IMG/VR virus record: IMGVR_UViG_3300009636_000037
Coordinates: 1-25,148 of that record
Origin: a virus
Length of the DNA: 25,148 nucleotides
Strand: one strand, 5' to 3'
A program made the translations under genes and the position numbers. The notes below the pieces were generated by a model. That model did no database searches and was not told where the DNA came from. It worked only from the letters and a program-made list of their open reading frames with translations. Positions 9,326-14,950 of the stretch are shown here, piece by piece. Within the stretch, counting starts at the first letter, position 1. The number at the start of each line of letters is the position of its first letter.

Positions 9326-9595
9326 ATGCTGCGCACCGACCGCATCCGAGCAGACATCCTCGGCATCCCGATCGGCCCCTGGGTCCAGGGGGCGATCGAA
9401 CTGCATCGCGTCCCGCGGATGAGCGGGCCGCTCGTGGCCGCAAACCTGAACGACCGCGAGCTGATGGTCCTGTGGGGTCTCTTCCACGACGAGCGCGGCT
9501 GGGATTCGCGCGAGTGGCGCGGCTACCACGCGCAGGACGCGCACACTGGATTCGCCGAGTTTGCTCGGTGGCTGTACCGCCGCTACTCCTGCTGA
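9326..9595 (+). CDS. Hypothetical phage protein, 89 residues
   Basis: The ATG is 3 bases after the upstream TAA, with GGAG 8 bases before it. The 89-residue product reads MLRTDRIRADILGIPIGPWV at the start and includes LNDRELMVLWGLFHDERGWD and a Trp/Arg/Tyr-rich end. There are no cysteine pairs until the last residue and no membrane segment. The dense charge and aromatic content suggest a small folded protein. I do not recognise a family. It is the third gene of the plus-strand island. Confidence 0.62.
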   Translation: MLRTDRIRADILGIPIGPWVQGAIELHRVPRMSGPLVAANLNDRELMVLWGLFHDERGWDSREWRGYHAQDAHTGFAEFARWLYRRYSC

Positions 9596-9623
9596 CCGGG
9601 TTCTCCCCGCGCGCCCTCTGCGG

Positions 9624-9632
9624 TGCTAGCCT
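9624..9632 (+). promoter_or_regulatory. Possible extended -10 promoter for a leaderless transcript
   Basis: The motif TGCTAGCCT has the extended -10 form (TG, one base, then a -10-like hexamer) and ends 7 bases before the ATG of the next gene at 9640. That ATG has no Shine-Dalgarno. A start site at the expected distance would fall on or beside the ATG. No good -35 is seen. Confidence 0.35.
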
Positions 9633-9639
9633 CGGTCGC

Positions 9640-10410
9640 ATGTTCGCCTCCGAATCGCAGGACGTGCTGGTCGACTTCAACGGGGTGCTGATGAAGATCG
9701 GGGGCGGCGTCGTGGATGGCGCCCGCGAGGCGATGGCTGCGATTCGCGCCGCCGGTCTCCGCGTCCTGATCTGGTCCGCCGCGTCGAGCGAGAGCATGAA
9801 GGCCGGCAACGAGATCGCCAGCTGGCTGAAGGACCACGACATCGAGTACGACGAGGTCTACGTCGGCCCGAAGCCGAAGGCCCGCGCCTACATCGACGAC
9901 CACGCGATCGAGTTCAAGGACAACTGGCCTGCGATCGTCCGGCGCCTCACGACCTCGAACCGGCCCGAGCTGCACGTGCTGATCGGCCTGCCGGGCTCCG
10001 GGAAGTCTTCCTTCGCCGCCGACAGCGGGTTCGTCGTGGTCTCGCACGACCGGATGCGGGCCCAGCTCGACGGTACGCACGCGACGGCGACAGCCTGGGA
10101 GCGGCGGGCGGTCTGGGCTGCGCTGGCCGCCGGCGAGAACGTGGTGCTCGACCGCTTGAACCTGACGCGAGCCCACCGACAGCGCTGGATAGAGCTCGCT
10201 CGAGCCTGCGGTGCGAAGCCGGTGGCGGTCCACTTCAACCTAGGCGGCGACATGCCATGGCTAGGGAACCTCGACCGGCAGGTTGCCAAGCGCGTCGGCC
10301 TGCGCAAGTTCGTGGTGCAGCTGTCGGAGTTTGAGCTGCCGTCGATCGATGAGGGGTACGCCGCTGTCTACCAGGTAGGGCGAGACCGGCAGCTCAAGCG
10401 GGTGGCTTGA
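9640..10410 (+). CDS. HAD phosphatase-like plus P-loop kinase fusion (polynucleotide kinase/phosphatase-like)
   Basis: The 256-residue protein joins two domains. Residues 1-100 look like a HAD phosphatase: DVLVDFNGVL (motif I, first Asp at 12), IWSAASS (motif II region), GPKPKARAYIDDHAIEF (motif III lysine and motif IV Asp pair at 86-87). Residues 110-256 are a P-loop kinase: LHVLIGLPGSGKS (Walker A, 116-123), VVVSHDRMRAQL, then NVVLDRLNL. T4 polynucleotide kinase has the kinase first; here the phosphatase comes first, the order of animal PNKP. The usual second Asp of motif I is Asn (14), so phosphatase activity is doubtful. A nucleic-acid end-repair role is inferred from domain pairing. The ATG lacks a Shine-Dalgarno. 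Its end overlaps the convergent gene by 17 bases. Confidence 0.78.
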   Translation: MFASESQDVLVDFNGVLMKIGGGVVDGAREAMAAIRAAGLRVLIWSAASSESMKAGNEIASWLKDHDIEYDEVYVGPKPKARAYIDDHAIEFKDNWPAIVRRLTTSNRPELHVLIGLPGSGKSSFAADSGFVVVSHDRMRAQLDGTHATATAWERRAVWAALAAGENVVLDRLNLTRAHRQRWIELARACGAKPVAVHFNLGGDMPWLGNLDRQVAKRVGLRKFVVQLSEFELPSIDEGYAAVYQVGRDRQLKRVA

Positions 10411-11738: not shown

Positions 11739-13100
11739 CTACCTGATTCGGCCGGCCCAGTTCGCAGGGTGGACGATCGTCCGCCCGTTGTACCCTTCGC
11801 CAGACGGGCCAAGCGCCAGGAACGTGATCGCCCAGACCAGCGCGTCGAGGCGGTCCGGCGAATCGCTCTCGCCTGGCACCCACGAGGTCAGCTGGTCTTC
11901 AAGCTCTGGGAACGCGCCGACGTGGTGAACCTTGCGCTGCTCGTAGAGCGCCGAGACCGGCTCAGCTCGCGCCGACTTCCCGACGCGGGCGTTCACCATC
12001 TTGACCTGCATCCCGCGGTGAGCGGTCTTCAGGATGTTCTCGACGAGGTTGCCGCCCTGGTTCCCCTCGGCCACGACCTTGCCGCAGTGGAACTCTTCGT
12101 AGGCCGCCGCGACCTTCTCCGCCCAGGCGTTCGGTGCTCGCCGGCCGGAGTAGTCGGCCCAGACGTAGAGGTGCTTGTTGCGGCCGAGACCGACGACCAC
12201 GATGCCGGTCTCCGCGCCCGGCTTCGTCTCGCGGTCGATGTCGTCTTCCTCCTGGTAGCTCACCGCAGGGTCGACGCCGACGACAACGCGAACCATCTCG
12301 GGGACGTCCTCGGGCCGCACGAAGGCGTCCTCGATCATCTTCCGCGTCCAGAGAGCTCCCTCGGTATCGCTGAGCACCTGGGCGAGCAGCTCCTGCCGGC
12401 CGAGCCGCGTGCCTTCGTAGCGGGCGAGGATGCGCCGCAGGAACTTGGGCGCGAGGTTGGCGAAGTTCTCGTAGGTCGATCCGCCGGTGATCTCGGTCCC
12501 TGGGTCTTCGACCAGCTCGCGGATGATGGGCGTCGGCCTCGGGGTCGTGGTGACGCAGACGCGAGGGTTGAGGCCGAGGCGGTTGCCGAACTGCATCTGG
12601 TCCCAGGCGTCGGGGTACTTCCAGGCAGCGAGCTCGTCCCCCCAGCCGGTGTCGCTCTGCGGGCCGCGCTGCTGGTCTGGCTTCTCGGCCGAGTAGGTCG
12701 TGGCGATGGCGCCGTTCGGCCAGGTCACCCGCCGCTTGCTGGGTTCGTAGATCGGCCGGAAGCCCGCCGGCGCCACCGACAGCAGCCCGCTCTCCCCCTC
12801 GACCATGACGTCTCGGACGTCCGCCGCGGTGCGGCCGACCAGCGAGACCCAGCGCGCGCCGTCGAGCACGCGCCGCGTGACCCACTCCGCCCCCGTCCGC
12901 GTCTTGCCGAAGCCTCGGCCGGCCAGGACGAGCCATGTGTCCCAGTTCGGGTCGAGCCCCGGCACGGAGCCCAGCGTTCCCGGAGCGAGCTGCTCGGGCC
13001 GCGCGATGAGATCCCAGCAGGGCTCCGCGCCACCGAGCAGCGTTACGACCGCTTCTGGCCCCTCGCGCTCAAGAGCCAGCTGCAGGAGGCTTTTGCCCAC
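11739..13100 (-). CDS. terL: Terminase large subunit
   Basis: The 453-residue protein is the packaging motor. Walker A is LAGRGFGKT (about residues 59-67), Walker B region is DTGWGDELAAW (about 150-160), and TTTPRPTP is the coupling motif. The nuclease domain has VGVDPAVS (Asp 277), VVAEGNQGG (Glu 345) and SPDRLDALVWA (Asp 419 region), the three acidic clusters of RNase H-like headful nucleases. Start is a GTG (13100..13098) with AGGAG 7 bases upstream and lies 32 bases inside the small-subunit gene. Its sequence is like the AGRGFGKT terminase group found in many high-GC phages and GTA-like elements. Together with TerS it loads DNA into the head through the portal. Confidence 0.95.
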   Translation of the reverse strand: MGKSLLQLALEREGPEAVVTLLGGAEPCWDLIARPEQLAPGTLGSVPGLDPNWDTWLVLAGRGFGKTRTGAEWVTRRVLDGARWVSLVGRTAADVRDVMVEGESGLLSVAPAGFRPIYEPSKRRVTWPNGAIATTYSAEKPDQQRGPQSDTGWGDELAAWKYPDAWDQMQFGNRLGLNPRVCVTTTPRPTPIIRELVEDPGTEITGGSTYENFANLAPKFLRRILARYEGTRLGRQELLAQVLSDTEGALWTRKMIEDAFVRPEDVPEMVRVVVGVDPAVSYQEEDDIDRETKPGAETGIVVVGLGRNKHLYVWADYSGRRAPNAWAEKVAAAYEEFHCGKVVAEGNQGGNLVENILKTAHRGMQVKMVNARVGKSARAEPVSALYEQRKVHHVGAFPELEDQLTSWVPGESDSPDRLDALVWAITFLALGPSGEGYNGRTIVHPANWAGRIR

Positions 13101-13566
13101 CGGGCGTCTCCTGTGGCTCGAGCAGCCGCTTGAACTTGGCGACCTGCTCTTCTCGGGTCTTCGTCACGACCTCGACCGGCCCGCCTCCGGGCCCGGTCAT
13201 GACGTGGGTGCTCTTCTCGGTCCAGCCCAGGTCGCGCTCCCCGAGCAGCCGAAGCAGGCTCTCGCTCGGTGGGTAGTAGCGGCGGTCCGGTCCGGTGTGG
13301 CCGTAGGCCCGATCCCGGATGCTGGCCTCGGTCTTCTCGGCCTTCAGCGTCGCCCCGATCTCGATGATCTTGGCGTAGTGCTTGTGCAGGGTTCGGACCT
13401 GGATCCCAAGCGCACGCGCCAAGTTTCGCAGTGGAGTGCCGCGAGCGATGCCTGCTTCAACGATCACGCGGAGATCTTCCGTTGGGACGTGCGCGGGCCT
13501 CCCCCCGGTGTGTTTGTCCTTTGGGATCGACCCTGGCTTCGGGCCTGGCTTCTTTCGGGGAGCCAT
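13069..13566 (-). CDS. terS: Terminase small subunit-like protein with HTH
   Basis: The 165-residue protein directly precedes the large terminase and overlaps it. Its basic N-terminus (MAPRKKPGPKPGS) and a helix-turn-helix region (RGTPLRNLARALGIQVRTLHKHY) fit DNA-recognition by TerS. The rest has a conserved-looking helix KTEASIRDRAYG and a linker rich in G/P/E, as in many TerS proteins that oligomerise through the middle region. The ATG is preceded by a GGAAGG motif and shares one base with the stop of the upstream micro-gene (TGATG). TerS identity relies on HTH plus position; no catalytic motif exists in this family. Confidence 0.8.
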   Translation of the reverse strand: MAPRKKPGPKPGSIPKDKHTGGRPAHVPTEDLRVIVEAGIARGTPLRNLARALGIQVRTLHKHYAKIIEIGATLKAEKTEASIRDRAYGHTGPDRRYYPPSESLLRLLGERDLGWTEKSTHVMTGPGGGPVEVVTKTREEQVAKFKRLLEPQETPGGQKPPAAGS

Positions 13567-14040: not shown

Positions 14041-14553
14041 CTACATGCACGAGATCCCGTTGCAGGTCTCGGCGTTCCCCGTCGTCGGGTCGGTCGAGCA
14101 GCACTGGGACGCGCTGACCTCGCACGACCCACCGACGATGGAGCAGCACCGATCGTCCCGGCTGCAGACGGTGAGCGGGGCCCCGCAGCAACTGGCGGCA
14201 CCAGCACCGACGACTGAGCTGCAGCCGTTCCCACCGGCCGGGATGCACGCTGGCGCGCTACCGGTGGTTGACGCGGCTCCAGAGCTGGAACCAGGCGGCG
14301 TCGCGCTCGCGGTCGAGCTGGCGCTGGTCGTCCAAGTCGAGCTCCCGGACGATTCGCCGGTTCCGGAGGCGCTCGTTCCACTGGGCGCGCTGCTCGTCGA
14401 GCTGCTCACGCCGACGCGACTTCCATCCGAGCCAGAGCGAGAGGCTTGCGAACCCGAGGCTCCCGACGAACCCGACGATCCGGAACCATCCCACGGCGCG
14501 ACCTCCTGACCACATGCTACCAGAACGACTAGGCAAAGCAGGGACCGTTTCAC
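14041..14553 (-). CDS. Cys-rich lipoprotein, candidate outer-membrane spanin
   Basis: The 170-residue protein starts at a GTG (14553..14551) with a GGAGG 6 bases upstream. MKRSLLCLVVLVACG is a lipoprotein signal with lipobox LVAC (Cys 14). A Ser/Gly/Thr-rich linker of about 80 residues follows, then a Cys-rich module with many C and CC pairs (SCCGAPLTVCSRDDRCC, then CEVSASQCCSTDP). Such Cys-rich tails occur in secreted myxobacterial lipoproteins. A different minus-strand frame inside the linker region encodes a membrane plus coiled-coil protein (14258-14494), as in overlapping spanin pairs. Spanin identity is an inference; the lipoprotein could be a moron with another role. The GTG overlaps the stop of the upstream gene as GTGA. 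Confidence 0.7.
   Translation of the reverse strand: MKRSLLCLVVLVACGQEVAPWDGSGSSGSSGASGSQASRSGSDGSRVGVSSSTSSAPSGTSASGTGESSGSSTWTTSASSTASATPPGSSSGAASTTGSAPACIPAGGNGCSSVVGAGAASCCGAPLTVCSRDDRCCSIVGGSCEVSASQCCSTDPTTGNAETCNGISCM
14258..14494 (-). CDS. Small membrane plus coiled-coil protein, candidate inner-membrane spanin nested in lipoprotein gene
   Basis: A second minus-strand frame inside the lipoprotein gene starts at a GTG (14494..14492) with AGGAGG 7 bases upstream. It gives 78 residues: VGWFRIVGFVGSLGFASLSL (membrane segment, followed by WLGW) and then a highly charged helix (KSRRREQLDEQRAQ, RNRRIVRELDLDDQRQ, DRERDAAWFQLWSR). Only about 6 of 78 codons end in A/T, versus about 23 in the overlapping lipoprotein frame, so this frame is under coding bias. 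A membrane helix plus charged coil fits an i-spanin. Against it, the basic cluster after the membrane segment would favour a cytoplasmic C-terminus, whereas i-spanins are periplasmic. Confidence 0.6.
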   Translation of the reverse strand: MGWFRIVGFVGSLGFASLSLWLGWKSRRREQLDEQRAQWNERLRNRRIVRELDLDDQRQLDRERDAAWFQLWSRVNHR

Positions 14554-14749
14554 GTGGAACCTCCAGGCTTCAGGTACTTGACGTCGTGGATCACCATCGA
14601 ACCGTCGGCCAGCTGCTCGGCGGTGACCTGGCAGCTGTAGTCGGCCGGACCGCCGAGGTTGATGCCCACGACCACGCAGCGGCAGTAGACCGGCTCGGTG
14701 ACCGGCCACTCGTCGAGTTCGTCGACCCAGATGCCTTTTTCTTCGCCAT
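14550..14749 (-). CDS. Small protein probably made by -1 frameshift at an A-rich site
   Basis: A conserved-looking frame (GIWVDELDEWPVTEPVYCRC, then GINLGGPADY and LADGSMVIHDVKYLKP) ends at a TGA that overlaps the lipoprotein start. That frame has no usual start codon. An ATG at 14749..14747, with GAGAGG 5 bases upstream, starts M-A-K-K-K in the 0 frame, and a -1 shift at AAG-AAA-AAG joins it to the coding frame. The combined product would have 66 residues. Frame 0 alone gives Ser/Thr/Arg-rich nonsense. Alternatives are an unusual start or a base error at the A-run. Function is unknown. Confidence 0.55.
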
Positions 14750-14758
14750 GCTTGCCTC

Positions 14759-14950
14759 TCAGGTGGGATGAAAGAACTTCTCCGCGAGCGCGATCAGCAG
14801 TAGCACGAAACCGAGCCCGAGCGCCCAGGTCCAGCCGCCCGCTCGAGCCGGGCAGTCCGCGTGCGGGGGGAGGCTGTCCATCCGGATCCCCGGCCGCACG
14901 TCGACCTCGTAGACGGCGCCGCATTCCGGGCAGAGGTCCCGGATCTTCAC
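14759..14950 (-). CDS. Zinc-ribbon protein with C-terminal membrane segment
   Basis: The 63-residue protein has an N-terminal CPEC and a later HADC, possibly a zinc ribbon (MKIRDLCPECGAVYEVDVRP), and ends with a single membrane segment WTWALGLGFVLLLIALAEKF. It is next to the spanin-like pair, so it may take part in lysis (a small holin-like protein), but the zinc ribbon is not usual for holins. The GTG start (14950..14948) shares bases with the TGA of the HNH gene (GTGA). No endolysin gene is seen beside it. Confidence 0.68.
   Translation of the reverse strand: MKIRDLCPECGAVYEVDVRPGIRMDSLPPHADCPARAGGWTWALGLGFVLLLIALAEKFFHPT

Follow-up and report, generated by a model that had tools for sequence, protein, structure and literature searches.

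The two-component spanins of phages combine a lipoprotein (o-spanin) with an inner-membrane subunit (i-spanin). In phage lambda, the gene Rz, which encodes a helical protein with an N-terminal anchor, overlaps the lipoprotein gene Rz1 in a different frame, the short Rz1 being contained in the coiled-coil gene Rz. Spanin genes often stand in a frame -1 relation (116 cases), and in the embedded pairs that were surveyed the o-spanin gene is located inside the i-spanin gene, the reverse not being described (Kongari et al. 2018; PMC6139136). The main text of a 2025 survey (PMC12596118) uses the class name 'embedded inner spanin', which we read as denoting the inner member of such a pair. Here we examine two overlapping minus-strand genes on a 25,148-base IMG/VR phage fragment with 66.7% G+C (IMGVR_UViG_3300009636_000037; this whole stretch is called the window below), where a gene for a membrane/helix protein lies inside a longer lipoprotein gene. 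The initial annotation had remarked that this nesting is opposite to that of lambda, and such an arrangement is indeed not described in the main texts of PMC6139136, the 2022 review PMC9636201 and PMC12596118; since supplementary tables lie outside these texts, the judgement on precedent is provisional.

The outer gene (14041–14553, minus strand) encodes a protein of 170 residues. Its GTG start overlaps the stop codon of an upstream 65-residue open reading frame (GTGA) and is preceded at 6 nucleotides by a Shine-Dalgarno sequence, GGAGG (14560–14564). The protein starts with a lipoprotein signal peptide (14512–14553), as o-spanins do, composed of an n-region with KR, a hydrophobic core and the lipobox LVAC, with Cys14 as the predicted lipidated residue and Gly at position +2. 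A Ser/Gly/Thr-rich linker of about 85 residues connects this signal to a C-terminal part with two tandem six-cysteine modules, C-x7-C-x10-CC-x6-C-x5-C (14146–14247) and C-x6-C-x6-CC-x11-C-x4-C (14047–14145), which together contain 12 cysteines, in addition to the lipidated one and a further cysteine in the signal peptide. The order C-C-CC-C-C, common to both modules, is that of the knottins (inhibitor cystine knots), a likeness of cysteine order alone. Searches of Pfam, NCBIfam and PHROGs assigned the modules to no family, the PDB gave no meaningful match, and the AlphaFold2 model of the protein is of too low confidence to judge a knotted disulfide fold (mean predicted local distance difference test score, pLDDT, 45).

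The inner gene (14258–14494, minus strand) is an open frame in the -1 frame of the outer gene and encodes 78 residues. It has a GTG start with the sequence AGGAGG (14502–14507) 7 nucleotides ahead of it, and its span matches the linker of the outer protein almost exactly. Residues 6–24 (14423–14479) form a single N-terminal hydrophobic segment, as expected of an i-spanin, with a mean hydropathy of 1.56 as compared to 1.35 for T7 gp18.5 and 2.63 for lambda Rz. With single-sequence input, AlphaFold2 predicts one helix from residue 4 to 77 (mean pLDDT 81), which would agree with the helical periplasmic domain that is common, though not universal, among i-spanins. The inner protein has no family in PHROGs (only a match with E 0.25), Pfam or NCBIfam, a PDB sequence search gave nothing meaningful, and a structural search of BFVD gave no match. 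The coordinates, frames, start sites and third-position counts of the initial annotation are correct, and both frames translate into the features that it listed, including the charged helix of the inner protein.

Whether both frames are coding was addressed with 20,000 synonymous recodings that kept the outer protein fixed and drew codons from nine genes of this phage that have database support; in a relaxed variant, the wobble G+C was lowered to the observed value. In the overlap, 72 of the 78 third positions of the inner frame and 55 of the 78 of the outer frame are G or C, and the former count had been taken as an argument for the inner frame. This argument is circular: the G+C content at third positions (GC3) of the inner frame was 0.923 in every recoding (standard deviation 0), because its third position is the second position of the outer frame, which is G or C in every codon for Ser, Gly, Thr, Ala and Pro. 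The count of 72 is therefore determined by the outer protein and is not evidence for the inner one. Nor was a synonymous codon score for the inner frame informative (0.759 observed against 0.756 in the outer-only simulation), and since the inner frame stayed open in 38% of the recodings, its openness is weak evidence. Other properties are not explained by the outer protein. The N-terminal hydropathy of the inner protein compares with a simulated value of -0.12 ± 0.68 (tail 0.005, or 0.012 with relaxed wobble), its number of charged residues falls in a tail of 0.018 (0.001 with relaxed wobble), and an open frame, membrane segment, Shine-Dalgarno sequence and start occurred jointly in 0.135% of the recodings. 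The outer frame has a GC3 of 0.705 in the overlap against a simulated 0.89 ± 0.035, and none of the 20,000 recodings gave a value as low as this; its A/T-ending codons coincide with sites of the inner frame that require W, F, I, S, K, N or L.

In the reverse test, with the inner protein fixed, the outer frame was open in 41% of the recodings. The fraction of Ser, Gly and Thr in the outer protein was 0.72 as compared to 0.58 ± 0.04 in the simulation (tail 0.001), and its 31 serines, against 22.3 ± 2.4, were reached in 0 of 20,000. Furthermore, the leucine codons of the inner gene are CTC in 9 out of 9 cases of CTC plus CTG, whereas the phage uses CTC in 55% (p 0.005). This is expected if CTG is avoided, because a CTG would introduce Cys, Trp or a stop codon into the outer reading frame. 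Each frame thus seems to constrain the other and to carry information that the other does not explain. The tests favour two coding frames, in a supportive rather than a decisive way, because they assume independent codons and a single codon table, because several tests were tried, and because GC3 is only 0.58 in the 19 outer codons that precede the overlap, so that low wobble G+C occurs outside the overlap as well.

A lipoprotein and a predicted N-terminally anchored helical protein, encoded in overlapping frames, have the anatomy of a two-component spanin. The best single reading of the locus, which we hold tentatively and at somewhat less than even confidence, is that of a spanin-like pair with inverted nesting: judged from sequence, it looks like a spanin and may work like one, and we do not file it as such. 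Put more specifically, and with a little more reserve, this could be an embedded spanin turned inside out, in which the gene of the inner-membrane subunit was overprinted in the disordered stalk of a lipoprotein that ends in two disulfide-rich modules, a disulfide-stiffened head replacing the Pro-rich tail. The linker is probably disordered and would be the part of the lipoprotein most tolerant of overprinting. The outer protein would be lipidated and sorted to the outer membrane, and the inner protein would be anchored in the inner membrane, its helix extending into the periplasm. They would make contact via the linker or the Cys-rich end of the lipoprotein and bridge the periplasm, and after degradation of the peptidoglycan the pair could fuse or disrupt the outer membrane and allow phage release. 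Such a function makes sense only with a diderm host. The combined periplasmic length, about 53 plus 156 residues, fits the range of 62–300 in SpaninDB (PMC6139136).

Searches for relatives were carried out in viral contigs, phage records, plasmids and prokaryotic genomes. The viral and genome scans, which depend on exact matches of short peptides, detect only close relatives. The pair was found on two other contigs, IMGVR 3300018019_000316 and 3300037843_000509, where both proteins are identical to those of the window. Searches of IMG/VR with the inner and outer proteins, a neighbouring 109-residue open reading frame, the helicase loader, portal and capsid proteins returned the same near-identical contigs only. 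The inner protein had no relative in 84,980 prokaryotic genomes and only insignificant matches in phages and plasmids. Relatives of the terminase large subunit (TerL) that lack the pair were present on 78 further viral contigs (49–58% identity) and in genomes (42–58%). About 1.57 Mb of fetched loci were also scanned for a lipoprotein frame overlapping a frame with an N-terminal transmembrane segment, with lambda and T7 as controls. A version with a strict Shine-Dalgarno requirement missed both controls; the relaxed version, which recovers them, found only the present pair (in the window and a near-identical copy) and the lambda and T7 spanins. Myxococcus phage Mx8 showed no similarity to the main proteins of the window and has no overlapping pair of this type.

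On IMGVR_UViG_3300047160_033761, a lipoprotein frame with a VVAC lipobox (4529–4849 of L028, plus strand) lies immediately upstream of a TerL gene whose product is 55% identical to that of the window. Its product resembles the outer protein in lipobox, C-C-CC-C-C framework and position upstream of TerL, whereas it has a single module (C-x9-C-x10-CC-x6-C-x7-C), no Ser/Gly linker and no nested membrane frame. Viral contigs and phages gave no further homologue of it, and we saw no conventional spanin pair on this 24-kb contig. Elsewhere in the fetched loci the six-cysteine framework matched three times: two near-identical cases with a stop in the upstream translation, and one more. By cysteine spacing alone, these data hint that Cys-rich phage lipoproteins next to TerL form a small group, not all members of which contain a nested frame. 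The same 24-kb contig carries a 120-residue frame with a hydrophobic N-terminus and the motif VMCAC (11540–11902 of L183, plus strand), possibly a second Cys-containing lipoprotein.

Several observations weigh against a spanin. The 12 cysteines of the outer protein exceed the maximum of 4 periplasmic cysteines in SpaninDB o-spanins, whose range of 0–4 is an observed one and not a formal criterion (PMC6139136). The nesting is the reverse of the embedded architecture surveyed there, the scans found no divergent homologue of the pair, the lipoprotein gene with the single module has no nested frame, and the early outer codons share the low wobble G+C mentioned above. We recognised neither an endolysin nor a holin nor any other lysis gene on the window; the contigs bearing the pair are incomplete, and an extra 2.2 kb of contig G001 was read only as open reading frames. 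The motif KSRRR after the inner membrane segment makes the proposed periplasmic C-terminus uncertain. What stands of the spanin proposal in the initial annotation is thus the two nested genes with o- and i-spanin-like anatomy, while the double six-cysteine module and the lack of a lysis gene on the contigs do not fit it. Two objections raised at that stage carry little weight. The basic residues after the membrane segment (flank charges +1 at the N side and +5/-3 at the C side) were thought to favour a cytoplasmic C-terminus, yet lambda Rz has flanks of the same signs (+1 and +3/-1). The missing neighbouring endolysin is a weak objection as well, since holin/endolysin adjacency is usual and not obligatory: T4 spanins are an exception (PMC6139136), and so are those of T7.

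The main rival explanation, which we consider rather doubtful, is that both genes are real and neither has a spanin function. The outer gene would then encode a host-like surface lipoprotein whose flexible stalk carries two knottin-like modules and whose task might be, for instance, receptor masking or superinfection exclusion. The product of the inner gene would be a small, overprinted membrane protein with a different role (holin-like, antiholin or exclusion). The number of cysteines beyond the o-spanin range, the single-module lipoprotein next to a related TerL gene on a contig without a visible spanin pair, and the lack of a nearby lysis cassette all argue for it. Against it, the survey counted 528 genomes with a two-component pair and 31 with a lipoprotein that lacks a linked i-spanin candidate (PMC6139136), and in the 1.57-Mb scan an overlapping lipoprotein/transmembrane helix pair was a signature of spanins.

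It is unlikely that only the lipoprotein is made, the inner frame arising incidentally from a GC-rich linker rich in Ser, Gly and Thr. Such an origin would account for the inner GC3, the codon score and the Shine-Dalgarno sequence with start, all of which can be expected from the outer protein; an open inner frame is found in 38% of the recodings, and the inner protein has no homologue beyond the two identical copies. It leaves the membrane-like hydropathy, the charge and the low wobble G+C of the outer frame as unexpected features. That only the inner protein is made, the Ser-rich stretch being a shadow frame of the kind that helix genes rich in GAG, CAG and CTC can yield in +1 and that often stays open on recoding, is very improbable, as the signal peptide, lipobox and Shine-Dalgarno sequence of the outer gene precede the overlap, the two modules follow it with a GC3 of 0.875 in this unique part, and the serine count lies above all recodings.

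The pair is embedded in a minus-strand array of genes for a head-tail adaptor, major capsid protein, protease, portal, TerL, probable terminase small subunit (TerS), endonuclease VII, helicase loader and replication initiator, and recombination and methylation genes (RecT, a Dam-type methylase) occupy the plus strand at the right end of the window. TerL (11739–13100, minus strand) matches Pfam Terminase_6N/6C and PHROG 979, and the probable TerS (13069–13566, minus strand) matches PHROG 309 (E 6e-4) and PHROG 12540 (E 7e-10). The lipoprotein gene is located two short genes upstream of this TerS. Between endonuclease VII and the lipoprotein lies a 63-residue frame (14759–14950, minus strand) that has a zinc-ribbon-like CxxC at its N-terminus and a membrane segment at its C-terminus. 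The interval between TerL and portal contains a plus-strand gene amid minus-strand ones (9472–10410), with HAD-like and AAA_33/polynucleotide kinase-like domains. Directly upstream of TerS, the small gene has 378 extra bases, exactly in frame, in the G001 copy (window 13616/13617 against L004 5938–6315), a stretch absent from the window and from G002; read by eye, the longer product looks ParB-like. The end of contig G001 carries a short-period repeat (L170 2612–2863) that encodes Gly-Ser/Tyr/Asp dipeptides in one frame and Ala-Met/Leu in another and runs off the contig.

If the spanin-like reading holds, the locus would represent a fourth gene architecture for two-component spanins, would mean that nesting is possible for either partner, and would extend spanins to heavily disulfide-bonded o-subunits. 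It would also put to a natural test the proposal that o-spanins, through their disorder and biased composition, could allow new i-spanin segments to emerge in their other frames (Kongari et al. 2018; PMC6139136). Even without a spanin function, the pair would probably represent overprinting in the stalk of a lipoprotein, a kind of arrangement that gene callers tend to miss. With respect to lambda, the difference goes beyond nesting: mature Rz1 is Pro-rich and has one cysteine besides the lipidated one, whereas the protein described here has 12. The location has a parallel in T7, where the gp18.5/gp18.7 pair also lies beside the terminase genes and the endolysin gene is found elsewhere. The T7 pair is conventionally nested and is placed between the small and large terminase genes, whereas the pair described here is inverted and lies upstream of the small subunit.
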